Shown here in pieces: positions 7,399-26,490 of a stretch of 64,000 nucleotides of DNA (its first letter is position 1; every line of letters begins with the position of its first letter). The notes below the pieces were generated by a model. The model saw only the letters and a program-made list of their open reading frames with translations. It was not told the origin of the DNA and did not search any database. Made by a program: the position numbers and the translations under genes. This DNA comes from Thermoanaerobacter wiegelii Rt8.B1 (lineage in GTDB: Bacteria > Bacillota > Thermoanaerobacteria > Thermoanaerobacterales > Thermoanaerobacteraceae): the NCBI RefSeq assembly GCF_000147695.2, contig NC_015958.1:2525501-2589500 (forward strand), given 5' to 3'.

Positions 7399-8583
7399 CT
7401 AAAACCCCATTTCGTGTAAAACATCTTCCAGTATTATTATCGCCGTATCTATTTCCTCTTCTGTCACAGTAAGAGGAGGAACAAATCTTAAAACATTGTG
7501 GCTGATACAATTTATAAGTAAGCCTTTTTCCATTGCCTTTGTCACAATATCCGAAGCCTCTTCCATATCCATTTGACAGCCTATCATAAGGCCCTTTCCT
7601 CTCACCTCTTTTATGACACTGTATTTCTCCTTTAAATTTTTAAGTTTTCTCCTAAAATACTCGCCTTTTTGAGCCACACTATCTAAAAAGCCTTCCTTTG
7701 TTATCTCATTCATAACCGCAATTCCTGCAGCACAAGCTAGGGGATTTCCTCCAAAGGTTGAAGCGTGGTCTCCTGGTGAAAAAACTGATTTATCCTCTTT
7801 TGCAACAATTGCTCCTATTGGGAATCCTCCTCCCAATCCCTTTGCCAATGTCATAATGTCAGGAGTTACACCGTAATGCTCATATCCAAAAAGTTTTCCA
7901 GTTCTTCCTATACCTGTCTGAACTTCGTCTATTATAAAGAGAATATCATTTTCATCGCATATTTCTCTTGCCACCTTTATATATTCTGGTGTAGCTTCAT
8001 GGATACCGCCTTCACCTTGCACTACTTCCAGCATAATTGCACATACTTCATCATCAATTGCTTCATAAAGAGCATCAATATCATTAAAGGGTACATATTT
8101 AAAACCAGAAAGAAGTGGACCAAAACCTTTGTGATACTTCTCTTGACCTGTTGCAGTCAATGCTCCAAAAGTTCTTCCATGAAAAGAATTTTTGGCAGAT
8201 ATAACTTTATACCTTTTATCACCGTATTTTAATGAGGCATATTTTCTGGCAAGTTTTATGGCGCCTTCATTTGCTTCTGCACCGCTGTTTGCAAAAAATA
8301 CTCTATCTCCAAAGGAGTTTTCCGCAATTATCTTTGCAAGTTCTATCTGATTCTCATTCCAATAAAGATTAGAACAGTGTATAAGTTTTTCAGATTGGTT
8401 CTTTATAGCATCAACTAATGCCGGATGACAATGCCCCAGTGAATTTACTGCAATACCTGCGACAAAATCGAGATAGACATTTCCTTTGTCATCCCACACT
8501 TTTGTCCCTTTTCCCTCTATCAAGGTAATAGGGTATCTGCTGTAAGTATTCATTACATATTTCTTATTCTCAGAGATTATCAT
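7399..8583 (-). CDS. argD: Acetylornithine aminotransferase
   Basis: A PLP-dependent class III aminotransferase of about 394 residues. It converts N-acetylglutamate semialdehyde to N-acetylornithine. Visible motifs are FANSGAEANEGAIKLARK, the IIDEVQTGIGRTG block with the PLP-binding Asp, and LAKGLGGGFPIGA with the Schiff-base Lys. The ATG at 8583 is used here. An in-frame TTG at 8589 has better spacing from the AAAGGA motif, so the true start could be two codons earlier. It overlaps the end of argB. Confidence 0.96.
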   Translation of the reverse strand: MIISENKKYVMNTYSRYPITLIEGKGTKVWDDKGNVYLDFVAGIAVNSLGHCHPALVDAIKNQSEKLIHCSNLYWNENQIELAKIIAENSFGDRVFFANSGAEANEGAIKLARKYASLKYGDKRYKVISAKNSFHGRTFGALTATGQEKYHKGFGPLLSGFKYVPFNDIDALYEAIDDEVCAIMLEVVQGEGGIHEATPEYIKVAREICDENDILFIIDEVQTGIGRTGKLFGYEHYGVTPDIMTLAKGLGGGFPIGAIVAKEDKSVFSPGDHASTFGGNPLACAAGIAVMNEITKEGFLDSVAQKGEYFRRKLKNLKEKYSVIKEVRGKGLMIGCQMDMEEASDIVTKAMEKGLLINCISHNVLRFVPPLTVTEEEIDTAIIILEDVLHEMGF

Positions 8584-9469
8584 CGTCAAAACATTCCTTT
8601 CCTATCATAGTACCTATCCCTTCATCAGTAAAAATTTCAAGAAGCAGTGAATGTGTAAGCCTTCCGTCAATGATGTGAGCTCTTTTCACGCCATTTTCAA
8701 CAGCTTTTATGCAACATTCAAGTTTTGGTATCATTCCACCGTTTATGCGTCCCGAATTCATAAATTCTTTTGCGTGCTCTAAGTCCATTCGGGATATTAG
8801 GCTACTTTTATCATTTATATTTGATAGAATTCCTTCGACATCTGTAAGTAAAATTAGTTTTTCAGCCTTTAATGCTTCTGCGATTTTCCCTGCTGCAGTA
8901 TCCGCATTTACATTGTATGTTTCGCCGTCATCTCCGAAAGATGTCGGTGCAATAACAGGTATATAGCCTTTTTCCAGCATCATCGTTATTACATCTATGT
9001 TTACATCTACAATTTTTCCTACGTATCCTATGTCGCCGTTTGAGGTATCTTTTTCCGCCTTTAAAAGTCTCCCATCTTTCCCGCTTACGCCAATCGCCTG
9101 GCCCCCTAGTTCATTGATCAAGGATACAATTTCTTTGTTGATACGACCTGTCAGCACCATTTCAACAATCTCCATCGTGGCCTCGTCGGTAACCCTCAAG
9201 CCATTTACAAACTTTGATTCTATATCTAACCTCTCCAGCATTTTATTTATTTCTGGTCCACCGCCATGGACGACCACAGGGTTTAACCCTACAAATTTCA
9301 TCAATACAATGTCCTGCATTACCATTCTTTTTAAATTGCAGTCTAACATTGCACTTCCACCGTATTTTATTACAACTGTCTTGCCGGAGAACTTTTTAAT
9401 ATAAGGGAGTGCTTCTATTAAAACATGGGCTTTTGCGATTTCGTCACCATATTTTTGCTTTCTAATCAT
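8570..9469 (-). CDS. argB: Acetylglutamate kinase
   Basis: A 299-residue amino-acid kinase that phosphorylates N-acetylglutamate, usually the arginine-inhibited step in organisms with the cyclic pathway. The motifs VIKYGGSAM (phosphate loop), VHGGGPEIN, NADTAAGKIAEAL and LLTDVEGI are all present. The N-terminal helix IAKAHVLIEALPYIKKF resembles that of the arginine-sensitive hexameric type, which would fit feedback control, although that is inference. The ATG at 9469 overlaps the argJ stop as ATGA. Confidence 0.96.
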   Translation of the reverse strand: MIRKQKYGDEIAKAHVLIEALPYIKKFSGKTVVIKYGGSAMLDCNLKRMVMQDIVLMKFVGLNPVVVHGGGPEINKMLERLDIESKFVNGLRVTDEATMEIVEMVLTGRINKEIVSLINELGGQAIGVSGKDGRLLKAEKDTSNGDIGYVGKIVDVNIDVITMMLEKGYIPVIAPTSFGDDGETYNVNADTAAGKIAEALKAEKLILLTDVEGILSNINDKSSLISRMDLEHAKEFMNSGRINGGMIPKLECCIKAVENGVKRAHIIDGRLTHSLLLEIFTDEGIGTMIGKECFDDDNL

Positions 9470-10686
9470 GTTCTATAACTCCCGTTAATTTTTACATAGT
9501 CATAGCTTAAGTCGCACCCCCAAGAAGTCGCACTATATTCCCCGGCCTTCATATCTACGGTTACAGTAATCTCTTTTTCTTTTAAAATTTCTTTGGCTAA
9601 AGCCTCATCAAAAAAGATGTAACCTCCGTTTTCACAAACTTTAATTTCTCCTTTCATGCTTTTTAAATATATGTCAACTCTACTTGCGTCAAAATCTGCT
9701 CCTGAATATCCCACTGCCGCGAGAATCCTTCCCCAGTTGGCGTCTTCACCGAATATAGCTGTCTTTACAAGATTTGAGTTTACGATAGACTTTGCAGCTA
9801 ATCTTGCATCTTTTTCAGTTTTTGCATTTATTACATTTACTTCCATGAACTTAGTTGCTCCTTCCCCATCCTTCACAATAAGTTTTGCAAGAGTTTTATT
9901 CACATACTCTAAGGCTTTATAAAACACATCAAATTCATGAGTCCCTTCTTCTATTATTTTGTTTTGCGCTTCCCCATTTGCAAGTATTATCGCTGTATCA
10001 TTTGTGCTCATATCTCCATCAACAGAAATCATGTTATAAGTTTTGTCTACAGTTTCTTTAAAAGCTTTGTTTAATGCAACTTTAGTTATACTCGCATCTG
10101 TAAGTATAAAAGAAAGCATTGTCGCCATATTTGGATGTATCATACCTGACCCTTTTGCAAACCCTGTCATTGTAACAATTTTACCTTCTATTACAAACTT
10201 GGCTGTCACACCTTTTAAAAAAGTATCTGTTGTCATTATAGCTTCAGCCGCCTGGTACCCACCCTCTGTTGAAAGATTTTCTGCCGCAGCCTCAATCCCT
10301 TTTAAAACTTTTTCCATAGGAAGAGGTGCACCAATAACCCCTGTAGAACATACCAGCACATTTTCTTCATCTATTTTAAGAAGTTGTGACACTTTTTTTG
10401 CCATGTTAACAGCATCCTCAAAACCTTTTTCTCCTGTGCAGGCATTGGCATTGCCACTGTTTATAATGATCGCCTGTGCTATACCTTTTTCTATTCTTTT
10501 CATATCAAGAAGGACTGGCGCCGCTTTAACCTTATTCGTTGTAAATACAGCTGCTGCATTTGCCACTTTTTCTGAATATATGAGTGCGACATCTTTTTTG
10601 CTTTTTTTAATTCCTGCAAAGATACCGGAAGCCAAAAAGCCTTTCGGCAGTTCAATACTTCCTTCTAAAATCTCCAACTCTTTCAT
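9466..10686 (-). CDS. argJ: Bifunctional ornithine acetyltransferase / N-acetylglutamate synthase
   Basis: A 406-residue ArgJ-family protein that recycles the acetyl group from N-acetylornithine to glutamate. The self-cleavage and nucleophile motif HPNMATMLSF is present, with the catalytic Thr after Ala. Clostridial ArgJ enzymes of this kind are usually bifunctional, and no argA is seen here, so I call it bifunctional by family knowledge. The ATG at 10686 has GGAGG seven bases upstream; the longer frame to 10701 lacks support. It is the second gene of the operon, 44 bases after argC. Confidence 0.95.
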   Translation of the reverse strand: MKELEILEGSIELPKGFLASGIFAGIKKSKKDVALIYSEKVANAAAVFTTNKVKAAPVLLDMKRIEKGIAQAIIINSGNANACTGEKGFEDAVNMAKKVSQLLKIDEENVLVCSTGVIGAPLPMEKVLKGIEAAAENLSTEGGYQAAEAIMTTDTFLKGVTAKFVIEGKIVTMTGFAKGSGMIHPNMATMLSFILTDASITKVALNKAFKETVDKTYNMISVDGDMSTNDTAIILANGEAQNKIIEEGTHEFDVFYKALEYVNKTLAKLIVKDGEGATKFMEVNVINAKTEKDARLAAKSIVNSNLVKTAIFGEDANWGRILAAVGYSGADFDASRVDIYLKSMKGEIKVCENGGYIFFDEALAKEILKEKEITVTVDMKAGEYSATSWGCDLSYDYVKINGSYRT

Positions 10687-10730
10687 TATCAAATCCTCCA
10701 AATCCCTTTATTTTTTGTATGTGTTTTTAT

Positions 10731-11765
10731 CTACGGATATATCGGAACTATATCAAGTCCAGTATTTTCATCCATTCCAAACATAATATTCATATTTTGC
10801 ACTGCCTGTCCTGACGCCCCTTTAACGAGATTATCAATCGCAGACATAACTATTAAAGTATTAGTATGTTTATCAACTTCAAACCCTATGTGACAAAAAT
10901 TCGACCCATAAACACTTTTTGTTGCGGGGTAATTGCCGGGTTGTAGCACTTTTACAAAATACTCATTTTTATAAAAATCGGTGTAAACATTATAAACAGT
11001 GTTTACATCCATATCTTTTTTTAGTTTACAATACATAGTACTTAAAATTCCTCTTGTCATTGGTGTGAGGTGGGGCGTAAACACAACAGACACTTTTTCA
11101 CCAAAAACTTTTGAAAGTTCTTGCTCCATCTCTGGGATATGTCTGTGTTTTGCAACATTATACGCTTTTATGTTTTCATTGCATTCTGCATACATATTGT
11201 TATGGGAGGGATTGTGACCTGCCCCTGATACCCCTGACTTTGAATCAACAATTACATTCCCCTCTATTATGCCATTTGTAAGAAGAGGCATAAGCCCTAA
11301 TATAACGCTTGTAGGATAACATCCAGGATTTCCAACAACTTGGGCCTCTTTTATGTCATCTCTATAAATTTCAGGGAGGCCATATACTCTTTTGATATCT
11401 CCATAATCCTCGTAATCTCCACTATACCATTCTTTATAGACAAAGTAATCGTCAAATCTAAAGTCAGCTCCTAAGTCAATCACCTTTACTCCTCTTTTTA
11501 CAGCTTCTCTTGCTATTTTTGAAGCATGACCTGAAGGCAAAGCTGTAAATATAACGTCGCAATTCGATATTGCCTTTTCAACGTCGGCTTCTTCCAACTC
11601 TTTGTCGCAAAAGCCAATGAGGGATGAATAAACATCCGAAATTTCTTTGGTATTATAACTTTGAGAAGAAAGATATTTTATCTCTACCTTTTCGTGCTTT
11701 GAAAGTATTCTTATAAGTTCAACCCCCGTATAACCAGTTGCACCAAATATTCCTACCCTCACCAT
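10731..11765 (-). CDS. argC: N-acetyl-gamma-glutamyl-phosphate reductase
   Basis: A 344-residue NADPH-dependent reductase forming N-acetylglutamate semialdehyde. The N-terminal Rossmann block [15 protein letters not shown] and the active-site GNPGCYPTS (catalytic Cys) are clear, with the [12 protein letters not shown] block following. It is the first gene of the eight-gene leftward arginine operon. The ATG at 11765 has GGAGG at a normal distance. Expression should respond to arginine through the ArgR/AhrC-like sites upstream. Confidence 0.97.
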
Positions 11766-11820
11766 TTAAAGTACCTCCCTCTTTTACACCCTCGGTCATT
11801 AATTAATATATATACGTTTT

Positions 11821-11935
11821 AATTTATAATTATGCATAAAGTGTTAAAAAAATATTTGCATGCATAAATACAATATTTAATTTATAATTATACAACTTTT
11901 ATTTTACATTATACCACCACAAAAAATTTTTTCAA
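11821..11935 (-). promoter_or_regulatory. argC operon promoter and putative ArgR/AhrC operator region
   Basis: On the minus strand TTGAAA at 11935-11930 and TATAAT at 11913-11908 are 16 bases apart. Downstream, AATTTATAATTAT occurs at 11821-11833 and again at 11879-11891, and TGCATAAA occurs at 11833-11840 and 11861-11868. The A/T-rich half sites resemble ARG boxes only loosely. No other operator-like repeat is seen before this arginine operon. Confidence 0.55.
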
Positions 11936-12149
11936 GAGTTTTTCACAAAAAATTCTCGAATAGGTATAGACATATTTACCACTTAGAGAATAATTGCAAA
12001 AACATTGAAGAAGAAAACACCATAAAAAGAATAGAGGCTGCCCCCCTTCTATTTGGTATAATTAAAATGTGTGAAATTCTTTTTAAATGTCTCACAAACA
12101 GCAGAAATATAAAAAAGCGACTTGAGCAGGGCCAATGCCTCTTTTTCAG
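11936..12149. other. Gap between the arginine operon and the G+C-rich island
   Basis: I see no intact gene here. A minus-strand frame ending at about 12049 (…SAVCETFKKNFTHF…) continues out of frame from the 3' part of the phosphatase gene and looks like a chance frame or a very small relic. No terminator hairpin was found for the phosphatase gene. Confidence 0.4.
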
Positions 12150-13328
12150 CTAATAAAGCTCTATATGCACCCTCTTGCCGCATTTTTTCAGGATTTGGGC
12201 CAGTTCCTCTACTATCTTGAGCTTGTCGCTTGCGCCTTCCGGCAGGTATGCATTCCGGTGGGCGGGATTGATCGCCCGCCCTACCAGAAAGCGGATGTGG
12301 GTGGAACGATTGACGAGCAGGTCTGCGAGTATTGAAGCTCCGTCCTTCTTTTTCCTTATATCGTCCAAGAAGTGGGGAGAAAAGGAATACGTGTTTATAA
12401 AATTTCTCAGTATCTCGACACACCTGCTTAAAGTTATCAAACCTTCGGTTACGAGGTCTATTCCCTCTATACTACCGACGGGAGGTATCGCCGGGTCGGC
12501 ATAGTCCATATTTGTGACTACTTTCCTTCCAGTTTCCCTAGAAACAATATTCGCAGTAGTACCTCCGCAGACCACCTTTCTGCCTTCGCTGCCAATAAGT
12601 TTTTTCACGACTTCTGTATCCTTTGACCTATCTTCAGGGGGCCCAACTAGTACCGTGAGCAGCTCCGACTTTCTTAAACCTACTCCCACGACCGTGGTAT
12701 CGTCCCCCGGATTACCGGAATAAAGGTGGCTACACGTTTTGATTAGCTGGTCCACCATCTCCGACACGAAATATCCCCTTCTGTCAAGCCTCTGCAGGTA
12801 TTCGGCCACATTGGGCCACTGCCATCCCAGGTTCAGGATACCTCCCACCCCTGCGTGAATGACTCCGTCGCTTACCAGGAATATTTTATCCCCCGGAAAG
12901 GCTTCGAACTGGTACTCCAGAATCCTCCTCTCTTCCACTCTCAGTTCCCTGTAAGGTAGCTTAAGAACCTTTCCGTCCCGGATGTAGATCACAGCTGGAT
13001 TATCAAATTCAAAAAGCCTTCCCTCTCCGTCATCGTTAATCTCGAGAATGGAAAAAGTGGAGTAAGCAAGCTGCCGGATCCGGCACACTGGGAGAGTATT
13101 AATCAGGGTCCTGACCACTTCTTCTATGGAAGCCCTGTTTTTTATCATGGTAGAAGCAATCCTTACGGTAAGGGTGGAAAGTATACTGGCCTTTACCCCG
13201 CTCCCCAGGCCATCGGCCATTACGGCAATTATGCCGTCTTCGGATTGCACAACCTCAACGCTGTCCCCGCACAGCTCTTCTCCTTTTTTGGTAAGGCTTT
13301 TGGTGAATACTTCGGCGTAGACCTTCAT
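12150..13328 (-). CDS. SpoIIE-type PP2C serine phosphatase linked to a hydrogenase-like sensor
   Basis: A 392-residue soluble protein. Residues of about 1-210 form a SpoIIE/PP2C phosphatase fold: GDSVEVV, VMADGLGSGVKAS (metal-binding Asp), FLVSDGVIHAG and GDDTTVVGVG. The remaining ~180 residues (after LLTVLVGPPEDRS) form a second conserved-looking region with no motif I can name. It overlaps the sensor gene by four bases. The pairing of a PP2C phosphatase with an [FeFe]-hydrogenase carrying a PAS domain is a known signalling arrangement, so the likely role is to pass a hydrogen or redox signal to a phosphoprotein. The gene is clearly more G+C-rich than the arginine and ethanol genes, which suggests transfer. 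Confidence 0.85.
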   Translation of the reverse strand: MKVYAEVFTKSLTKKGEELCGDSVEVVQSEDGIIAVMADGLGSGVKASILSTLTVRIASTMIKNRASIEEVVRTLINTLPVCRIRQLAYSTFSILEINDDGEGRLFEFDNPAVIYIRDGKVLKLPYRELRVEERRILEYQFEAFPGDKIFLVSDGVIHAGVGGILNLGWQWPNVAEYLQRLDRRGYFVSEMVDQLIKTCSHLYSGNPGDDTTVVGVGLRKSELLTVLVGPPEDRSKDTEVVKKLIGSEGRKVVCGGTTANIVSRETGRKVVTNMDYADPAIPPVGSIEGIDLVTEGLITLSRCVEILRNFINTYSFSPHFLDDIRKKKDGASILADLLVNRSTHIRFLVGRAINPAHRNAYLPEGASDKLKIVEELAQILKKCGKRVHIELY

Positions 13329-15036
13329 TTTTCTTCTTCCCTGCCTTTAACCAGTTCTATAAGCTTAAGGAGCAGCATCTTGCTCTCCGCCGTCGTCTCT
13401 CCCAGCAGTCCCGCTATTTCTTGGGCGACGCGCATCTGCCTGTTTATTACTTCCTGAGCCTTCTCCAGGGTCTCCTCCCTGACCTTTTCTAATTCCATCC
13501 TCTGCTTTTCTTGTTCGGTAATATCCTGAATAATCGCCAGTACCAGGTCCTCTTCCCCGATATAGCATATAGTCTGGAGGGTGGTTAAAGAATTCCGGGA
13601 ATAGTTCACCTTTTTATCCTGCAGGTTGGTTTTATTGGCCATTACCCAGGCAAAATCCCTGTCGTCGATGACGGTCGAAAGGGGCTTCCCCTGGACCTGT
13701 TCCTTTTCAACACTGAACATTTTTTCTGCCGCTCTGTTTATTTCCTTTATATTCAAATTACTGTCTACCAGAATGATGCCGTTCGGGGTGTGGTCTATGA
13801 TCAGGTTGGCTAGGGATTCGGCCCTGGACCTCATGTAGGGGATGCACATGTCCGGCTCCGCCATTCCTTGGTAAACAGCTTCGGCTTTTTTACGACAGGT
13901 AGGATATCCACACGCCCCACAATTCAATTCTTTTTCGGGAGTTGTTTTACCTATTAAAGCCAGTATTTCTCTTATCTCTGATTCAGTTGGCGTAGGTGCT
14001 TTAAAGGCCTTCGGCTCGAAAGACCTCCTGAGGTCAATACCAGCCGCATAAGCCTTTATATTCTCATACCCTTGCTGCTGTTGATTATTTTCAATAAATG
14101 AAAGCAACCTTTCCCTTCTTTCATAAAGGGAACTGCCGGACGGCATCAAAGGCCCGGCGATACATCCGCCTCTGCACGCCATCATCTCAAATAGCCGGCC
14201 GCTCACGCTTCCCCTCTCCAGGGCGTCTAAAAACTCCATGCACTCCTCTATACCGTCCACGACTACGACCTCGCGGGACAAGAGGTTATAGTTGATTGAA
14301 GAAGTCTTCAAAAGCCCACCGGGCAAGGGATAGCTCCTGGCAATAAAGGGCTCCCAGGCGCCTTCTAGCTGTCCGGAGTCCGCCCCGGGGCCCACAGAGG
14401 CTTTTTCATCTATCCAATCCATCAATTCCCGGAAGGTCAGTACTGCATCTACATCGCCCAAAACGCTCCGATCCCGGGCTTCAGCCTTTTTAGCGATGCA
14501 AGGGCCTATAAACACGACCTTAACGTCCCACCCGTATCTTTGCTTCAACAACCTTGCGTGGGCCACCATCGGGGATACCACCGGAGCTAGATTACCTATA
14601 AGTCCCGGGTAGTATTTCTCTGCCAGATTCTTCACAACCGGGCAGGTCGTGGTTATGAGGGGGCCATTATGCCCCTCTTTGATCAACCGGCGGTATTCCA
14701 AGGATACCAGTTCGGCGCCCACCGCTGTTTCCTCGGCTCCATAAAACCCGAGGCTCTTCAGTATGGAAAACATTTCGCGGGGGGAATCCACGTCGAAGGC
14801 GGCGGGGTATGAGGGGGCGATGGAGGCTATGACCTTTTCCCCAGCCTGTATGAATTGCTTTATGGTATTCAGGTCGTTTCTCGCCTTCTTGGCATTTTGG
14901 GGGCACTCGATGACACACCTTCCGCAGTACACGCACAGCCCTGGCCGCCAGCTATTTTTATGGCCTTGACCGGACAGTGCCTGACGCACCGATAACAGTT
15001 TTTGCAGTTTGCCGGGGATACACTGATTACATCCAA
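13325..15036 (-). pseudogene. [FeFe]-hydrogenase-like PAS sensor, frameshifted near the 5' end
   Basis: The probable start is the TTG at 15036 (GGAGG seven bases upstream). It reads DVISVSPANCKNCYRCVRHC, the first [4Fe-4S] motif. After about 32 codons this frame fails near 14940-14952. The rest continues in another frame from PGLCVYCGRCVIECP to 13325: a second [4Fe-4S] motif, then H-cluster loops TTCPVV, GPCIAKKAE and MACRGGCIAGP, a further cysteine cluster NCGACGYPTC, a PAS domain (TPNGIILVDSNLNIKEINRAA) and a C-terminal coiled coil. About six residues normally lie between the two cluster motifs and are missing. The bases CCAGG sit at the break, so a deletion between short repeats is likely. 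The total length of 1712 bases is not a multiple of three. A GTG at 14989 could give a 554-residue product without the first cluster, but it has no SD. Confidence 0.75.
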
Positions 15037-15038
15037 AA

Positions 15039-15293
15039 TTAATCCTCCTTCCAGTTACCGTTCTTTACGGCTTCAAGAAGCCCAGCCACATCTTTCGGAG
15101 CCACGGAAGTAAAATATCTATCCCCAACCTTTACCGTTACCCCTTCAGTACACCTTCCCAAGCAGAATCCCGCCTTTAGTTCCACGCTGTTTTCCAGACC
15201 GTAAAAAGGAATCAGCCTTTCGAACTCCTTGATCACCTCGTAAGCCCCTTTCAAATGACAGGAACTCCCCACGCAAACCGTTATCTCAACCAT
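15039..15293 (-). CDS. Thioredoxin-like [2Fe-2S] protein (NuoE/HndA C-terminal type)
   Basis: An 84-residue protein with CVGSSCHLKG near the N-terminus and FCLGRC in the middle, the four-cysteine pattern of the thioredoxin-like [2Fe-2S] fold found in NuoE, HndA and small stand-alone ferredoxins. It lies two bases before the sensor gene start and has a good SD (AGGGGGTG). It is probably an electron carrier for the hydrogenase-like sensor. Base composition matches the G+C-rich island. Confidence 0.8.
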   Translation of the reverse strand: MVEITVCVGSSCHLKGAYEVIKEFERLIPFYGLENSVELKAGFCLGRCTEGVTVKVGDRYFTSVAPKDVAGLLEAVKNGNWKED

Positions 15294-15304
15294 AAGGCAC
15301 CCCC

Positions 15305-15472
15305 TTATAAAAGCTGATAATCACTCTCTCCATCTTTCGCGTCTGCTTTTTCTATAAACTTGCCTCTTACCTCCGCTATCAGAATCAAAGTACAGTTTTC
15401 AATATAAAAAGTTGCTTCAAGGATTATTCTATCTTCAAGGTTGTTTTCGTATAAATAGATACCTGCACTCGT
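15305..15472 (-). pseudogene. Truncated gene remnant at the island edge
   Basis: A minus-strand frame (…YENNLEDRIILEATFYIE…, ending …KDGESDYQLL) stops at 15305-15307, just before the SD of the 2Fe-2S gene, as an operon partner would. Its 5' side is cut by an in-frame stop beside a 14-bp tandem duplication: ACCTGCACTCGTTT at 15461-15474 and the same with one change at 15475-15488. I do not recognise the protein. It may be the 3' end of a gene of the transferred operon. Confidence 0.35.
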
Positions 15473-15488
15473 TTACCTGTACTCGTTT

Positions 15489-15838
15489 CGCACTTCCTCT
15501 AAAGCCTTATTCTTCAAATTTGTTAAATTTTTTACAAGTTAAGGAAAAATATCTGTTAGATTATTAACACTCTTAGTTAATTATACATAATACACATGTA
15601 CGTATCAAGATTTGTAAATAAGTACAATTATAATTCCATTAAGTTCCTGCAATATTAAAATCTATTTCTTTTTTAGAAACTTTTAAATATTATTTTCCCT
15701 ATATCATTAATAAAATCTATTACAATAGATAACCCCTTTCTGTGATTTTGTTTTTTGCCAATTCTATCTTATCACAGGAGTTTTTTCTAGTTCTTTTTAC
15801 TTAAAAAAATTTATCTATAAATTTTATAAATTGCAATA
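15489..15838. other. A/T-rich gap before the IS30 element
   Basis: I see no gene, RNA or clear repeat here apart from TATCTATAAATTTTATA at 15812-15828, which recurs on the far side of the IS at 17167-17183. Confidence 0.4.
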
Positions 15839-15900
15839 TTAAATGCAACACTTAATGAAAATCATGTAGATATAGGATTTGGGACAAATCATATATAACC

Positions 15901-17098
<1,198 letters not shown>

Positions 17099-17197
17099 CT
17101 ATATCATACATGATTTTCACTATGGTTTCTATTTTTTATCTGTTGCATTTAATTATACAACTAACCTATCTATAAATTTTATACTACGTCCAAATAA

Positions 17198-17255
17198 ATT
17201 GTTGACAAAGCTTTAACAATGTGTTATTTTATAATTGTATACTGTATACAATTAT
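17198..17255 (+). promoter_or_regulatory. adhB promoter with 25-bp perfect palindrome
   Basis: TTGACA at 17202-17207 and TATTTT at 17225-17230 are 17 bases apart. A perfect palindrome with 12-base arms (ATAATTGTATAC, T, GTATACAATTAT) covers 17231-17255 over the expected start point. The core TTGTATAC-GTATACAA looks like a GntR-family site. Imperfect arms ATTGTTGA/TTAACAAT (17198-17205, 17213-17220) resemble a Rex site, but the spacer is three bases too long. Confidence 0.6.
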
Positions 17256-17291
17256 AAAATAAATTAATAATCAATGGGAGGTATCTCAACA

Positions 17292-18350
17292 ATGAAAGGT
17301 TTTGCAATGCTTAGTATCGGTAAGGTTGGCTGGATTGAGAAAGAAAAGCCTACTCCAGGCCCATTTGACGCTATCGTAAGACCTCTAGCTGTTGCCCCTT
17401 GCACTTCGGACATTCATACCGTTTTTGAAGGTGCTATAGGTGAAAGACATAACATGATACTCGGTCACGAAGGTGTAGGTGAAGTAGTTGAAGTAGGTAG
17501 TGAGGTAAAAGATTTCAAACCTGGTGATCGCGTTGTTGTGCCAGCTATTACCCCTGATTGGCGTACTTCTGAAGTACAAAGAGGATATCACCAGCACTCC
17601 GGTGGAATGCTGGCAGGCTGGAAATTTTCAAATATAAAAGACGGCGTCTTCGCCGAATTTTTCCATGTGAACGATGCTGACATGAATTTAGCACATCTGC
17701 CTAAGGAAATTCCATTGGAAGCTGCAGTTATGATTCCAGATATGATGACTACCGGCTTTCACGGAGCCGAACTGGCAGAAATAGAATTAGTTGCAACGGT
17801 GGCGGTTTTGGGTATTGGCCCAGTAGGTCTTATGGCAGTCGCTGGTGCCAAATTGCGGGGTGCTGGAAGAATTATTGCAGTAGGCAGTAGACCTGTTTGT
17901 GTAGATGCTGCAAAATACTATGGAGCTACTGATATTGTAAACTATAAAAATGGTCCTATCGACAGTCAGATTATGGATTTAACTGAAGGTAAAGGCGTCG
18001 ATGCTGCCATCATCGCTGGAGGAAATGCTGACATTATGGCTACGGCAGTTAAGATTGTTAAACCTGGCGGCACCATCGCTAATGTAAATTATTTTGGTGA
18101 AGGAGATGTTTTGCCTGTTCCTCGTCTTGAATGGGGTTGCGGCATGGCTCATAAAGCTATAAAAGGCGGTTTATGCCCTGGTGGACGTCTAAGAATGGAA
18201 AGACTGATTGACCTTGTTTTTTATAAGCGTGTCGATCCTTCCAAACTCGTCACTCATGTTTTTCAAGGATTTGATAATATTGAAAAAGCTCTAATGCTGA
18301 TGAAAGATAAACCAAAAGACCTAATCAAACCTGTTGTAATATTAGCATAA
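17292..18350 (+). CDS. adhB: NADP-dependent secondary alcohol dehydrogenase
   Basis: A 352-residue zinc medium-chain alcohol dehydrogenase that reads almost identically to the well studied T. brockii/T. ethanolicus enzyme. It interconverts secondary alcohols and ketones (and ethanol/acetaldehyde) with NADPH in the cytoplasm. The zinc ligands Cys37 and His59 are in place, with Asp in MIPDMMTTG (Asp150 in the family). The Rossmann motif GIGPVGLMA is present, and GSRPVC plus KYYGATD give NADP selectivity. The ATG at 17292 has GGGAGG ten bases upstream; an earlier ATG at 17274 has no SD. The gene is single, with its own promoter and a 17-bp stem terminator. Confidence 0.98.
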   Translation: MKGFAMLSIGKVGWIEKEKPTPGPFDAIVRPLAVAPCTSDIHTVFEGAIGERHNMILGHEGVGEVVEVGSEVKDFKPGDRVVVPAITPDWRTSEVQRGYHQHSGGMLAGWKFSNIKDGVFAEFFHVNDADMNLAHLPKEIPLEAAVMIPDMMTTGFHGAELAEIELVATVAVLGIGPVGLMAVAGAKLRGAGRIIAVGSRPVCVDAAKYYGATDIVNYKNGPIDSQIMDLTEGKGVDAAIIAGGNADIMATAVKIVKPGGTIANVNYFGEGDVLPVPRLEWGCGMAHKAIKGGLCPGGRLRMERLIDLVFYKRVDPSKLVTHVFQGFDNIEKALMLMKDKPKDLIKPVVILA

Positions 18351-18383
18351 AAATGGGGACTTAAACCCCCATTTTTATGCTAA
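18342..18383. terminator. adhB terminator
   Basis: A perfect 17-base stem has arms TTAGCATAAAAATGGGG and CCCCATTTTTATGCTAA around an eight-base loop. It includes the adhB stop codon. The A-run and T-run on either side make it usable in both directions. Confidence 0.85.
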
Positions 18384-18559
18384 TAAGACTAAAAGCACTG
18401 GTTTTTTATATGACACATCGGCCGGCAAAGTTTTGGTAAAAAATAACAAAAACGCTGTTTTCATAACATTTTTATTCCATTAACACTGATACTATCATTG
18501 AAAGTAGCAGAGAACTATTAAAATCTTATTATCACAGAAATAGAAAAAGGAGGACTATT

Positions 18560-20825
<2,266 letters not shown>

Positions 20826-20842
20826 ACATCTTTCGGTAAACT

Positions 20843-20905
20843 AAAGAGACGATAGCAAGACGGCACTATGGAAGGATATACATCCAGCTATCGTCTCTTT
20901 TATTT
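20843..20905 (+). terminator. nfnAB terminator
   Basis: A perfect 14-base stem has AAAGAGACGATAGC (20843-20856) and GCTATCGTCTCTTT (20887-20900), with a 30-base loop and a T-rich tail. Confidence 0.8.
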
Positions 20906-21062
20906 GTGAATTTATCATTTTACCTGCTCACTTATTTCCTGTTCTGCAATCGTTTTTAAAATTTTGTTGTCACATCTACTAATAAAAACTTTATACTGTT
21001 TTCTTCCTTTTTCTACTATTTGCCAAATCGTAATAATGCTGTAACATTTTAATTTCATTTTT

Positions 21063-22229
21063 CTATTTTTTAACGTGATGTCTCTTCCTTAAATTCTCCT
21101 TTACAAATATATATCCAAAAATCAACATAATACTAAAAGCCAATAGAGAATTATATAAAAACATCAGTTTTATCCCATAAATATCACTTAAAAATCCTCC
21201 AAGTAAACTTCCCGTAATCCTTGAAATCCCCATGCCAATAAGATTGTTCATAGTCTGTCCTGAAGCCTTAAGCTCATTTGGCACTTCCTGGTTAATGTAT
21301 GTCACCATGGAGTAGTATAAAACTATAAATATCGTACCATGCAAAAGTTGAAGAGGCAAAAACATATACGGACTTTTTACTAAAAATATCAAAAGCCATC
21401 TTATTCCTGCAACAAAAGTTGCCCCTAATAAAGCATTGCGAGTTCCTATCTTTTTAAGTACTTTATCGGCATAAAGTAAAAAGGGAATTTCACTCATGGC
21501 AGAAATAAAATAATTCCAACCCAAAAGGCTATTACTCCCACCTAATTGTTTAAAATAAATAGGAAAGTAAGTGTAATAAAAACCAAGAGTAACCTGCACT
21601 AAAAAGTTTAAAACTATAAGTATCACTAAATTTTTATTTGAGAAAAGATTCCAAATCGACACATGTGTTCTTCCAAACTGATGGCCTTTAACGATTGGCA
21701 ATTTGAACACTATCATAAAAGCTAAAAACATTACAATAATGTTAAGGGCAAAAATGCTCCTAATATACTTCTGGGCAAAAAATCCTGCAATTACTGACAT
21801 CACTGCATATCCTATAGTCCCTGCCATTCTTATAGGACCAAATTTTTGACCAGTCTCGCTTAAATATTCCAGCGTTATTGTATCTCCAATAGGACCAGTT
21901 GAGGTTTGAAAAAATGTAAAAAGAGCAATTACAAAAACCAAATAATAAAAATTAGCAGAAAGAGGATATAAAGCCATTGTCAATATGCTCAACAAAAATA
22001 AAAGCTGTAAAACAATATTTTTTGATTTTGCCCTGTCACTTGTAATGCCCCAAAAAGGCTGAGCTAATATCGCTACAAAAGGCCCCAATGACATAAGTAC
22101 GCCAATGGCTCCTTTGCTATAACCTATGTAATCCAAATAAACTGGCAAAAAGGTGCCATAAATTGCACCGCTCATAAAGAAAACAGCATAATAAAGGATT
22201 AAATAATAGTAAATCTTCTTTGTGGACAT
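21063..22229 (-). CDS. MFS transporter, 12 membrane segments
   Basis: A 388-residue hydrophobic protein with about 12 membrane segments. It has the MFS loop signature GITSDRAKSKNIV after helix 2 and a repeat of the fold in the second half. It resembles the LacY/phenylpropionate-permease-like (MFS_1_like) group rather than drug pumps, but the substrate cannot be named. The ATG at 22229 has AGGAGGTAG upstream. It lies downstream of the cyclase-family gene with a hairpin between, so it may be transcribed alone or by read-through. Confidence 0.85.
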   Translation of the reverse strand: MSTKKIYYYLILYYAVFFMSGAIYGTFLPVYLDYIGYSKGAIGVLMSLGPFVAILAQPFWGITSDRAKSKNIVLQLLFLLSILTMALYPLSANFYYLVFVIALFTFFQTSTGPIGDTITLEYLSETGQKFGPIRMAGTIGYAVMSVIAGFFAQKYIRSIFALNIIVMFLAFMIVFKLPIVKGHQFGRTHVSIWNLFSNKNLVILIVLNFLVQVTLGFYYTYFPIYFKQLGGSNSLLGWNYFISAMSEIPFLLYADKVLKKIGTRNALLGATFVAGIRWLLIFLVKSPYMFLPLQLLHGTIFIVLYYSMVTYINQEVPNELKASGQTMNNLIGMGISRITGSLLGGFLSDIYGIKLMFLYNSLLAFSIMLIFGYIFVKENLRKRHHVKK

Positions 22230-22256
22230 ATGCTACCTCCTCTTTACCAAAAAGAA

Positions 22257-22274
22257 AGAGCCAATAAAGGCTCT
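22257..22274 (-). terminator. Terminator after the cyclase-family gene
   Basis: The hairpin AGAGCC-AATAAA-GGCTCT is followed on the minus strand by TTTCTTTTT, between the cyclase-family gene and the MFS gene. Confidence 0.6.
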
Positions 22275-22280
22275 AACTTT

Positions 22281-22916
22281 TTATTCTTCCACTATTGCAT
22301 AAGCCCTTGTAAAAGCACCATCTGCTCCTTCAATTAAAATAGGAGCTGCAGAAAACCACACTCTCTTTTGACTTATTTTATCGAGATTATTAAGATTTTC
22401 TATTATTATGATATTACTCGCCAATAAAATTTTGTGAACTGGAAAAGTGATATCATCTCTTACAGGGTCTGGAGAAATAAAATCTAGGCCAACAGCTTTC
22501 ACCTTGTGCTTTACCAGCTCTTTAGCCAATTCCTCTGAAAGATAAGGTGACTTTTTTATATATTCTTCTTTATCCCAAAGTCTTGAGTACCCTGTTCTAA
22601 AAAGAACTATATTTCCTTCTCTTATCTCATGTCCTTTTAAAACATCTGGCCCAATTTCAAATGAATCTTTTACATCTACATCTACAATTACTGCCTCTCC
22701 CATAAATGTATCTATGGAAATTTGGTCAATTGTCTTCTCTCCTTTTATCATATGGGCTGGAGCATCACAATGAGTACCTATATGATTTATCCCATAGAGA
22801 AAATAAATAAAATTATAATTTGTATCTCCTATAGAATTAATATCAATTGGCAACGTCCCCGGATAAGTCGTCATCCCGACTCTATAAGGATGTGTCAAAT
22901 CAATTATTCTTTTCAA
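22281..22916 (-). CDS. Cyclase-family metal hydrolase (kynurenine-formamidase-like)
   Basis: A 211-residue protein of the cyclase/arylformamidase family. The signature metal-binding motif HIGTHCDAPAH is present, with GLDFISPDP and a late NLNNLD block. Members hydrolyse amides or cyclic imides; without other tryptophan-degradation genes nearby a kynurenine role is not supported. The start is the TTG at 22916, seven bases after AAGGAGG. The frame opens earlier (22940), but that region is the SD itself. It begins four bases after the polX stop, so the two are probably co-transcribed. Confidence 0.85.
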   Translation of the reverse strand: MKRIIDLTHPYRVGMTTYPGTLPIDINSIGDTNYNFIYFLYGINHIGTHCDAPAHMIKGEKTIDQISIDTFMGEAVIVDVDVKDSFEIGPDVLKGHEIREGNIVLFRTGYSRLWDKEEYIKKSPYLSEELAKELVKHKVKAVGLDFISPDPVRDDITFPVHKILLASNIIIIENLNNLDKISQKRVWFSAAPILIEGADGAFTRAYAIVEE

Positions 22917-22920
22917 CTTT

Positions 22921-24639
22921 TCACCTCCTTCCATTTTCAAAATATTCTAAAACTTCTTCCACCTCATAAGTATTTATGACATCTTTTGCCTCAAGCCACC
23001 CTTTTCTTGCAATCCCTATCCCGTATTTTACGTCATTTAACCCCTGTATACTGTGGGCATCAGGGCATATTGCAAACTTTACTCCCTTTTCTTTTGCATG
23101 CTTTATATATCGCCAATCCAAATCAAGCCTATAAGGATTTGAGTTTATTTCAATTATTTTGCCATAATGGGCTGCCGCCTCTATAATTTCACACACGTCT
23201 ATTTCGTAGCTGTCTCTCGCTAAAAGAAGCCTTCCTGTCACATGCCCTACAATACTTGTATATTTATTCTCTATAGCTTTTATCATCCTTTTCGTCATGT
23301 CCTCTTTACTCATTCTAAAATGAGAGTGGATAGATGCAATGACAAAATCAAACTGTTTCAATATCTCTTCATCATAATCCAAAGACCCGTCAGGAAGTAT
23401 ATCAGACTCTACACCTTTTAATATGACTATATCTTTGTATTTCTTGTTTAACTCGTCTATCTCTTCCCACTGTCTTATTAAATCCTCTTCACTTAGACCT
23501 CCTGCATAAAAAGCAGATTTACTGTGGTCTGTGATGCCTATATACTTATACCCCAATTTTCTCGCTGCTTCTACCATTTCTATAAGGGTACTAGCCCCAT
23601 CGCTATAAGTAGTATGGACGTGGAAAATTCCCTTTATATCTTTTTCTTCTATCAATTTAGGAAGCTGTCCTTTTTCTGCCGTTTCTATCTCTCCCATGTT
23701 TTCTCTAAGCTCTGGAGGAATATATAAAAGTCCTAATTTATTAAATATTTCCTCTTCACTTTTGCACTCTATAAGTTCTTCACCTTTAAAAATGCCATAT
23801 TCATTCATTTTAATACCCATTTGCTTTGCCCTGTGCCTCATGGCGGTATTGTGCTCCTTGCTTCCTGTAAAGTGATGAAGTGCATAGGGAAACTCTTTTT
23901 CCGTCACAACTCTTAAATCTGCATTTATACCCGACTTTAAAGTGATACTGGTTTTTGTATCTCCTTTTGCTATAACTTCCCTTACATCTTGGTAATTTAC
24001 AAATAATTCCATAACCTTTGAGGAATCTGATGCTGCAGCCAAAATATCAATATCTTTTACTATCTCTTTTTTCCTTCGTAAACTTCCTGCAATTTCCGTC
24101 ACTAATGCAGTTTTAGTCATATCTAAATATTCCTTTAATTTAAGCGCTTCTTTATAAGCTTCCGCATATAAATGTTGACCGCTAAATTGCTTCACAAACT
24201 GTATCCCCTCCAAAATTTTCTTTTGAGTCTTTTCCCCAAACCCCGGAAGGTCTACCAATCTATTCTCTATACAAGCGTATTCCAACTCTCTAATTGTGGT
24301 GATATTCAATTTTTCGTATATAATCTTTATCTTTTTCGGACCAAGTCCAGGAATTTTAAGCATTTCAACAAGCCCTTCAGGAATAGATGCTTTTAAATTC
24401 TCATAATATTCCATTTTACCCGCTAAAACCAGCTCTGTAATCTTTTTATTAATTGCCTCCCCTATTCCCTTTACATCCTTTAACCTGTCTTCTTTTACAA
24501 GAATCTCTAAATCTTCATCTAATAGTTCTATTGTCCTTGCAGCATTATAATAGGCTCTCGACTTAAAAGGATTTTCCCCTTTAAGCTCAAGCAATAACCC
24601 TATTTCATTTAAAATATCAGCAACCTCTTTTTTATCCAT
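22921..24639 (-). CDS. polX: DNA polymerase X family, PolX (copy 1)
   Basis: A 572-residue bacterial PolX. The N-terminal helix-hairpin-helix region has two HhH blocks (VKGIGEAINKK and IPGLGPKKIK). The nucleotidyltransferase site GSLRRKKEIVKDIDIL holds two metal-binding Asp, and NADLRVV supplies a third. The C-terminal PHP domain shows HVHTTYSDG, HSHFRM and CPDAHS. It fills gaps in base-excision repair and has 3'-5' exonuclease activity. A close paralogue lies at 36944-38656. The ATG at 24639 has AAGGGGA upstream. Confidence 0.95.
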   Translation of the reverse strand: MDKKEVADILNEIGLLLELKGENPFKSRAYYNAARTIELLDEDLEILVKEDRLKDVKGIGEAINKKITELVLAGKMEYYENLKASIPEGLVEMLKIPGLGPKKIKIIYEKLNITTIRELEYACIENRLVDLPGFGEKTQKKILEGIQFVKQFSGQHLYAEAYKEALKLKEYLDMTKTALVTEIAGSLRRKKEIVKDIDILAAASDSSKVMELFVNYQDVREVIAKGDTKTSITLKSGINADLRVVTEKEFPYALHHFTGSKEHNTAMRHRAKQMGIKMNEYGIFKGEELIECKSEEEIFNKLGLLYIPPELRENMGEIETAEKGQLPKLIEEKDIKGIFHVHTTYSDGASTLIEMVEAARKLGYKYIGITDHSKSAFYAGGLSEEDLIRQWEEIDELNKKYKDIVILKGVESDILPDGSLDYDEEILKQFDFVIASIHSHFRMSKEDMTKRMIKAIENKYTSIVGHVTGRLLLARDSYEIDVCEIIEAAAHYGKIIEINSNPYRLDLDWRYIKHAKEKGVKFAICPDAHSIQGLNDVKYGIGIARKGWLEAKDVINTYEVEEVLEYFENGRR

Positions 24640-24746
24640 TTTTTATTTCCCCTTTAACATGCAAAATCTTTACTACATTATACCACAGAAAAACAAAAAA
24701 GAGAGATAACATTCTCCCTGCCATCATAAACCTTCATATTCTCCTT

Positions 24747-25027
24747 TTATTTCCCCCATTCTTTATCCATTCGGTGTTTTATCGCTTCATAGTCGGGTTC
24801 TAGCAATTTTTTATCTATAAATAATTCAAACATTCTGAGACTTTCATACTCATGTTTCACTATCTTCCAATGGCCATTTTGCTTTTCCAATTCAAAAACA
24901 TTATCTGAATCTACAAACATAGGATAAGCCTTTTCTCGCTCTAATTCTAGCTTTAACACTACCCTTGCTTTATTATCTGTTATCTCGATTTTTTTATCTT
25001 TAAAATTTTAACCTCAATAAATGACAT
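24747..25027 (-). pseudogene. Small unknown gene with a one-base frameshift
   Basis: An ATG at 25027 gives MSFIEVK and then loses frame. One added A in the AAAA run at 25006-25009 would restore NFKDKKIEITDNKARVV and the rest to 24747, about 93 residues in all. The alternating beta pattern (ARVVLKLELEREK, HWKIVKHEY) suggests a SnoaL/NTF2-like domain, with low certainty. I do not recognise the family. The 281-base length is one short of a multiple of three. It may be decayed or mis-sequenced. Confidence 0.5.
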
Positions 25028-25177
25028 TTCTTAAAAATTCCTTTCTCTCCTTTAACCTCCTCACTCAATAATCCTAATAATTACCAGTAATTCTTCCTAT
25101 ATCCATGGTATATCCTTTCCAGTGATATGTCAACTGACCAAAAGTACAAATTTTATATAAAATCTCCTCTATTTTTG

Positions 25178-25228
25178 TACTTTAGTATAAAATTTACATT
25201 TATTTCCTTTAAAACTTGTACTAAAGTA
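25178..25228. promoter_or_regulatory. Tandem TACTNNAGTA operator-like sites
   Basis: TACTTTAGTA at 25178-25187 and TACTAAAGTA at 25219-25228 are 41 bases apart, about four helical turns. Each is embedded in a shared TTGTACTNNAGTATAAA context. The pattern recalls BlaI/CopY-type dyads but does not match their known consensus. No regulator is seen nearby. Confidence 0.4.
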
Positions 25229-25247
25229 TAAATTGGTTATCTTTTTT

Positions 25248-25334
25248 CTAGTAAATTGTATTTCTAAGCCAATTAAATAAAAAAGCAGTAAGAATTATGT
25301 TTATAATCGAAAAAATAAGAGTATAAAAATTCAT
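25248..25334 (-). CDS. Small hydrophobic peptide, 28 residues
   Basis: An ATG at 25334 with GGGAGG six bases upstream opens a 28-residue frame: one hydrophobic helix (YTLIFSIINIILTAFLF) followed by NWLRNTIY. It resembles single-span membrane peptides of unknown function. It lies between the frameshifted lipoprotein and the operator-like pair. The good SD is the main support; the frame is too short for coding statistics. Confidence 0.4.
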   Translation of the reverse strand: MNFYTLIFSIINIILTAFLFNWLRNTIY

Positions 25335-25477
25335 AAAATGCCTCCCTATAAGTGACAACCCTTTTTCTCACTAAAATTTTATTAAATCAAAATTTGATCT
25401 TATTTACCATCCCTATAATTCTTCCAGTTTATGTATGTATTTATACTTAAAACAATACTCAATACAACTAACCAATA

Positions 25478-26490
25478 TCACCTCATACTCGCTGTTGCCA
25501 ATGCCTTCAAAATGTTATTGTGAGCATCTACCAACAATATCTCTACCTTCCCTTTCCCCTTTTTAATTTGAAGGATTTTGTTAAAATCAATAGGATAATT
25601 CTTTAAAAAATTAAAGCCAAATTCTCTGTGAGAATCCGGAAATACGTATTTTTCAAAATTACTCAAAATGATTTTATTTCCATTTCTTGTGTCAATCATT
25701 TCAGTCTCGCCATCTGTGTAGTAAACTATAGCTACATCTCCATCTTTATAGAAAAAGGGAATATCGTAAGCTAACTTCTTAGAATCTTGTGAAATAATGG
25801 TAGATTTCGATCCCTTTAAATTTACTATCACAAGATCATAATTTATTTTTTCTGCCTGGTCTTCTAAAAAGGATACAAAAGCAACAACATGGTCGGTCCG
25901 TCGTATGAGAGAACTGCGTCCTTCGAGTGTCGCTATTTCTTTTTCTAGACCATTTTTACTAACTTTATAGACCTTTGTAGTCCCTACATTTATGTTTCTA
26001 TAAAAATATACATCTTCTCCCTCTAAAGCCAGTAAATATCCTTTAGATATGAACTGGGGGGTTCCTTCCCCTACTTTTTTGTAAACTTTGCCCAAACTGT
26101 CAAAATAAATTTGACACTGGTCGCCAATTTTTTCACCAATTACATTAGAAACAGGCATATCTACTTTTACCTCATGGATTTTGAAATCTTGTAAATCTAT
26201 TACTTTTATTAGTGCAAAATCTTCTTTTGTCCATTTGGACTTAAGAATAAAACATTATCTCTTTCCAATTTTAACTCTACGGGAAGTTTATAGAAGTTTC
26301 CTTTTTCCTCTAATATGATATTACCTCTATCTTCCAGTATGGCTTTCTCTGAAGTTGCATAAATAAATTCCGGATCAGAATCGCTTTTAAATTGATATTT
26401 TTGTAAATGGGAATACTTATCCGAACAAGAAGTTAAAATTAACAAAGCTGATATGAGAATTACAGATAAAAAATAAATGACCTTTTTCAC
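25478..26490 (-). pseudogene. Lipoprotein with propeller-like repeats, one-base frameshift
   Basis: The start is a GTG at 26490 with GAGGTG upstream. A signal peptide with lipobox LLILTSC follows. The first frame ends at 26209, but adding one A in the AAAA run at 26225-26228 joins it to EDFALIKVIDLQDFKIHEVK and to the second frame (25478-26158). The repaired product has about 337 residues, with repeating beta segments such as DVAIVYYTDGETEMI and YDLVIVNLKG. It is probably a surface lipoprotein of unknown role. The layout is similar to the lipoprotein at 60329-61786, although the sequences are not obviously homologous. Confidence 0.6.

Follow-up and report, generated by a model that had tools for sequence, protein, structure and literature searches.

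The DNA stretch analysed here, called the window below, covers 64,000 nucleotides of Thermoanaerobacter wiegelii Rt8.B1, a thermophilic ethanol producer. It carries an hfsA-hfsB-hfsC-like operon at positions 12150-15293 of the minus strand, whose products are a 2Fe-2S protein, a PAS-containing sensory [FeFe]-hydrogenase and a SpoIIE/PP2C phosphatase. An earlier note on this DNA had named the same three proteins, and our domain matches agree with it. The locus and its borders comprise the following features:

10731-11765, minus strand: argC, left border of the locus
12150-13328, minus strand: hfsC-like SpoIIE/PP2C phosphatase, 392 aa, intact (SpoIIE Pfam match, E 1.1e-18)
13325-14989, minus strand: hfsB open frame, with Fe_hyd_lg_C, FeS and PAS
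13325-14135, minus strand: 3' part of hfsB, with the C-terminal Cx2Cx4Cx16C cluster motif and the PAS domain; near-identical to a second genomic copy
14136-15036, minus strand: 5' part of hfsB, with two [4Fe-4S] motifs (in different frames) and the H-domain; about 79% identical to the second copy and, by block, 81-87% to Thermosediminibacter
14936-14949, minus strand: junction of a 16-base net deletion, reading GGCGGCCAGGGCTG
15039-15293, minus strand: hfsA-like 2Fe-2S thioredoxin-like protein, 84 aa, intact
15709-15808, no strand: terminal remnant of another repeated element, found also beside the second copy and in the related genomes G003 and G008
15824-17166, minus strand: IS30-family element with target duplication (transposase at 16019-17098, NF033563, E 2.2e-82)
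17224-17262, no strand: palindrome in the adhB promoter region, with the core GTATACTGTATAC at 17237-17249
17292-18350, plus strand: adhB-type NADP-dependent secondary alcohol dehydrogenase, divergent from the hfs genes
18560-19438, plus strand: nfnA-like FAD/NAD-binding subunit
19425-20825, plus strand: nfnB-like glutamate-synthase-related subunit
22921-24639, minus strand: polX, which borders the locus on the right here and in four relatives

The G+C content of 12150-15293 is 0.501, whereas none of 547 other stretches of this size in the 64-kb window exceeds 0.423, and nine 1-kb windows within the island lie 3.9-5.7 SD over the outside mean of 0.352. The genes are indeed richer in G+C than their neighbours, as had been claimed, and within these 64 kb the profile does not fit the possibility, raised there as a refutation, of the same composition across the genome. 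The next G+C-rich block is adhB-nfnAB (0.40-0.45). The window also holds two PolX-like stretches (22939-24639 and 36957-38656) with 75% DNA identity.

The hydrogenase nature of hfsB is indicated by the Fe_hyd_lg_C match (E 2.5e-55) and by the TTTCP, PCIAK and MACRGGC motifs of the H-domain. The predicted model of HfsC (mean pLDDT 81.3) fits PP2C/SpoIIE structures over its first ~220 residues (3pu9_A: Z 24.5, rmsd 2.8, 216 aligned). Five of its aspartates are invariant (D22, D39, D154, D209 and D210), which we take to be the metal-binding aspartates of the PP2C fold. The Pfam match, the structural match and these invariant residues together place HfsC in the SpoIIE/PP2C phosphatases. Residues ~222-392 form an additional domain, with a mean pLDDT of 83.7 when modelled alone. 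These C-terminal 171 aa (window 12153-12665) are kept across nine relatives. Searched alone, they gave a best Pfam E of 0.012 across 10 members, nothing in NCBIfam at E 1e-20 or with Foldseek at E 0.001 and, by profile search against the PDB, only matches at E 0.1 or worse; the top row from VIA-align (Z 9.2, rmsd 3.0, 113 aligned) is too weak for naming the domain.

The IS30 element that the earlier note had seen on one side of the genes is present at 15824-17166. Its assignment rests on an IS30-family transposase, on eight near-full copies elsewhere in the genome and on 14-bp target duplications (in the window, 17 bases are shared), found for 6 of the 9 near-full copies of this genome and in both relatives examined. 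The target duplication of the IS30 family is usually 2-3 bp, shorter than the one found here. The same element has inserted independently at three points of the argC-adhB interval, i.e. in the window, in G003 (L081) and in G002 (L086). A truncated gene had also been reported on this side, but we found no gene there, only the piece of about 100 bases at 15709-15808, which recurs at many places in the genome. One of these places, L003:2981-3078, lies where a 492-aa ORF begins, which presumably encodes a transposase. As for the palindrome upstream of adhB, its core is perfect in the window and in the hfs-less genomes G001 and G004, shows two mismatches or is degenerate in G006, G002 and G005, and is absent from the hfs-bearing G003 and G008 and from the second copy.

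Near 14940, in the stretch that separates its two N-terminal [4Fe-4S] motifs, hfsB goes out of frame: the first, CKNCYRCVRHCP (C at 15006), and the second, CVYCGRCVIECP, are read in different frames. We aligned the window with 11 rows of relatives, corresponding to nine distinct records (L017/L080 and L018/L082 are duplicates). In this 12-row alignment, 16 bases net are missing between the two motifs, and in the window only. Alignment with relatives, one of the checks that the earlier note had proposed, places the frame loss where that note had seen it. The "about six residues" then reported missing are in line with a 16-base gap, and the CCAGG reported at the junction is present in the junction sequence (14936-14949, minus strand). 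Since the gap exists relative to all relatives, it accounts for the frame loss, and neither an alternative code nor a programmed shift is needed.

The first motif sits in a short frame, while the remainder of hfsB lies in a 554-residue open frame that runs to the stop and retains the second motif, the H-domain, the Cx2Cx4Cx16C motif and PAS. Two of the 82 positions invariant in the 11 relatives are changed in the window, the same number as in the Thermosediminibacter control, and dN/dS of the window hfsB is 0.12-0.16 versus six relatives (the fragmented G008 copy being excluded). Because the remaining frame is both open and conserved, the break looks recent. We infer from the sequence that the window copy of hfsB has lost its function. 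Furthermore, the start codon of hfsC overlaps the stop of hfsB (ATGA), so translation of hfsC from this copy may be reduced owing to the break.

Could the gap be a sequencing or assembly error, with an intact hfsB at this locus in the strain itself? It rests on one assembly, and the T. thermocopriae record shows that genes are split in error-rich records. However, a net loss of 16 bases is untypical of base-calling error, the genome is a single contig with 100% completeness, and the neighbours argC, hfsC, hfsA, adhB, nfnA and nfnB are all open; such an error is therefore very unlikely. We judge it just as improbable that the split gene still works, with internal initiation giving a truncated sensor of at most 554 aa that would keep the second [4Fe-4S] motif, the H-cluster, the C-terminal cluster and PAS, with an altered input. 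The downstream frame is open and conserved, and the overlap of hfsC with the hfsB stop could exert pressure to keep translation running, but the GTG start at 14989 lies inside the upstream reading frame with no clear ribosome site seen by eye, and the first ~17 residues would be out-of-frame sequence. Two further candidates were set aside. T. thermocopriae was not counted as a second natural break, as many other genes are split in that record. The IS30 element was rejected as the cause of the break, being a separate clean insertion with its own target duplication, 530 bases upstream of hfsA.

The earlier note considered the whole unit to be inactivated. This holds for the window hfsB, whose frame is broken, but probably not for the cell, as the same genome contains an intact second hfsB-hfsC. 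Given this second copy, the hydrogen-sensor function has probably not been lost. The second locus (roughly 1988050-1996760) is located ~0.55 Mb from the window copy and holds an intact 581-aa hfsB, hfsC, a truncated hfsA, an iron alcohol dehydrogenase, adhB and nfnAB. Its HfsB has both N-terminal [4Fe-4S] motifs in one protein. Outside the locus, its flanks (L003, L089 and L090) have only short repeats in common with window positions 8000-26000, and nearby ORFs look like transposases. In Caldanaerobacter subterraneus (L017:5080-7615), an iron alcohol dehydrogenase ORF abuts nfnB with no adhB or nfnA match between them, as if these had been deleted.

The comparison of the two copies revealed a mosaic. 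They show 13 differences in 11935-14135 versus 363 differing columns beyond 14140, being near-identical up to 14132 and ~79% identical from 14136. The last informative site of the copy-2 type is 14132 and the first of the Thermosediminibacter type is 14136, which places the switch at about residue 285 of the open frame, just past the end of the H-domain match (residue 280). The two HfsC proteins are 100% identical. To the right of the IS30 element, the first half of adhB is 75-90% identical by block and the second half 95-99%, the adhB-nfnA gap 77%, and nfnAB ~100% at the DNA level. In trees built on 13 sequences, the window hfsB 5' part stands apart from the genus copies (FastTree 1.000; IQ-TREE 70, i.e. 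moderate), while the hfsB 3' part and hfsC group with copy 2. As a separate observation, the first half of the copy-2 adhB (L003:15046-15520) matches another genus (G356, G395) at 90% identity and the window form at 78%; its second half is of the genus type, making it a chimeric alcohol dehydrogenase gene.

The almost identical hfsC and 3' hfsB halves suggest that the two copies exchanged DNA, and the 5' halves fall into two allele classes, with the meeting point where the H-domain ends. Natural competence is used as a method in these bacteria (PMC5707799), which makes frequent recombination plausible. Instead of old copies homogenised by gene conversion, the two loci could stem from a recent duplication, with the differing blocks imported later. 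Their outer arms are almost identical (hfsC in protein, nfnAB in DNA), as a duplication would have it, but at least three separate blocks differ by ~20-25% (14136-15145, 17401-17770 and 18351-18555), so that several imports would be required, and only short repeats link the flanks of copy 2 to window 8000-26000. We regard a recent duplication as possible but the less probable origin.

We then considered the distribution of the locus in ten genomes of the genus (G001-G009 among them). Sensor relatives at E 1e-60 were found in 5 of them, with six hfs copies in total, each beside adhB and/or nfnB. All ten have argC (75% identity in G007), most have adhB-nfnAB near it, and polX lies on the right in G001-G004; the window locus occupies this conserved argC-polX interval. 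In G001 (same species), G004 and G006, argC is directly beside adhB without hfs, with ~25 bases between the matched ends. An IS30 copy takes the place of hfs in G002, while G009 gave no adhB match next to argC. Full hfsA is present in only one of the ten, as the window copy (the match in G002 has 35% identity inside a 189-aa ORF), and in all nine genomes of g3, a genus of the same family.

From 12150 to 15337, the window shares 80-89% DNA identity with Thermosediminibacter in 11 of 11 blocks, versus 71-76% for copy 2, G003 and G007 over 14250-15149. Its HfsB is 83-86% identical to that of Thermosediminibacter versus 44-46% to those of G011 and G016, which belong to its own family; G016 (L129) is presumably Thermoanaerobacterium. 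When 398 genomes sampled from the phylum were searched with 14136-15340, G266 alone gave a near-full match (84%) outside the genus; we equate it by organism group with the Thermosediminibacter record L019, and 7 of the 9 genomes of its family matched. For 15341-15721, no match was found in the Thermoanaerobacter loci compared and only 43 bases matched in Thermosediminibacter. In the draft L019, hfsC (L019:10293-10852) is split into two frames near residue 235. The ORFs upstream of its hfs genes (L019:1-4256) are, at a guess, CRISPR type III genes.

The patchy presence (5/10), the G+C content and relatives that are much closer in another family of the phylum than in the window's own all speak for the transferred unit that had been proposed earlier, and a transfer of the hfs locus from a Thermosediminibacter-like lineage is well supported on these sequence grounds. 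The uniform distance of the window to Thermosediminibacter suggests that the window keeps the older full cassette, the genus-type 5' half being a replacement. The exchange may also have run in the other direction, as a recent import into the window. The explanation that we favour, and hold to be quite probable, is that an hfsABC-type operon from a Thermosediminibacter-like lineage sits in the argC-polX interval, that a recent 16-base deletion broke its hfsB, that an intact hfsBC remains elsewhere in the genome and that the two copies exchanged DNA.

Beyond the gene identities, the break, the second copy, the mosaic and the taxonomic pattern, which were directly observed, the protein families and the cited papers suggest how an intact system would act. 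The H-cluster and the iron-sulfur clusters of HfsB would respond to H2 or redox state, and HfsA might be its partner in electron transfer or assembly. From HfsB, the signal would pass through the C-terminal cluster and the PAS domain to HfsC, which would dephosphorylate a partner and thereby shift the expression of fermentation genes. In the window copy, this chain would be cut at HfsB; HfsB and HfsC would be expected to come from copy 2, and the only HfsA of the cell from the broken locus. PMC5707799 reports more ethanol and more adhE transcripts after deletion of hfsA or hfsB in T. saccharolyticum, and more ethanol after deletion of hfsB in T. mathranii. In the same paper adhA did not track hfs, which argues against a simple link of hfs to every alcohol dehydrogenase gene. 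A bolder and unlikely extension would make the hydrogen-sensing front half of HfsB, with its iron-sulfur and hydrogenase domains, an exchangeable module in the genus, which joins a shared PAS-phosphatase back half by recombination where the domains meet and moves together with the type of adhB promoter. Through natural transformation, strains would then switch, exchange or shut off their H2 control of ethanol metabolism, as a natural counterpart of the engineered high-ethanol loss of hfsB.

The hfs system itself is already known: the names hfsA-D, their phenotypes and their influence on ethanol or hydrogen yield in other strains are given in PMC5707799 and PMC11837493. The window adds a natural broken hfsB allele with an unusual recombination history, and our literature search, covering listings and parts of papers, found no publication on this break or on the two-copy mosaic. 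Since losing hfsB is an established way to engineer a higher ethanol yield, the natural break, the intact spare and relatives with one copy or none offer a ready comparison. A 2013 survey (PMC3608648) lists, in the part available, two PAS-sensory hydrogenases for T. wiegelii only; annotation-based counts of PAS-hydrogenase genes may include a broken one.

Finally, we compared the locus with known systems. Group C (M2f) putative sensory [FeFe]-hydrogenases have two N-terminal cluster motifs, an H-domain, Cx2Cx4Cx16C and PAS (PMC8163306). The window hfsB has the same parts as members such as T. maritima HydS, including an exact Cx2Cx4Cx16C match at residue 357 and PAS. However, it is paired with a phosphatase and is not one open frame, its two N-terminal motifs being separated into different frames and thus not found in one protein. 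With the hfsABCD operon of Thermoanaerobacterium (seen in G016, L129), the window shares the order and orientation hfsA-hfsB-hfsC and the three protein types. It differs in that HfsB is only ~44-46% identical and broken, the locus adjoins adhB-nfnAB, and hfsC is followed by argC instead of hfsD, where G016 has a 504-aa hydrogenase ORF. The hfsBC of the Thermoanaerobacter mathranii type comes from the same genus, and the proteins of the window hfsB 3' part and hfsC are 94-96% identical in 3 of the 4 other genus genomes that have them (80-87% in G005). According to PMC5707799, T. mathranii is without hfsA and has a different gene orientation, whereas the window has a full hfsA and another 5' hfsB allele. 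The hfsABC of Thermosediminibacter litoriperuensis (L019) has different surroundings, with ORFs resembling a sigma-54 activator and a transporter, but is collinear with the window at 80-89% DNA identity throughout.
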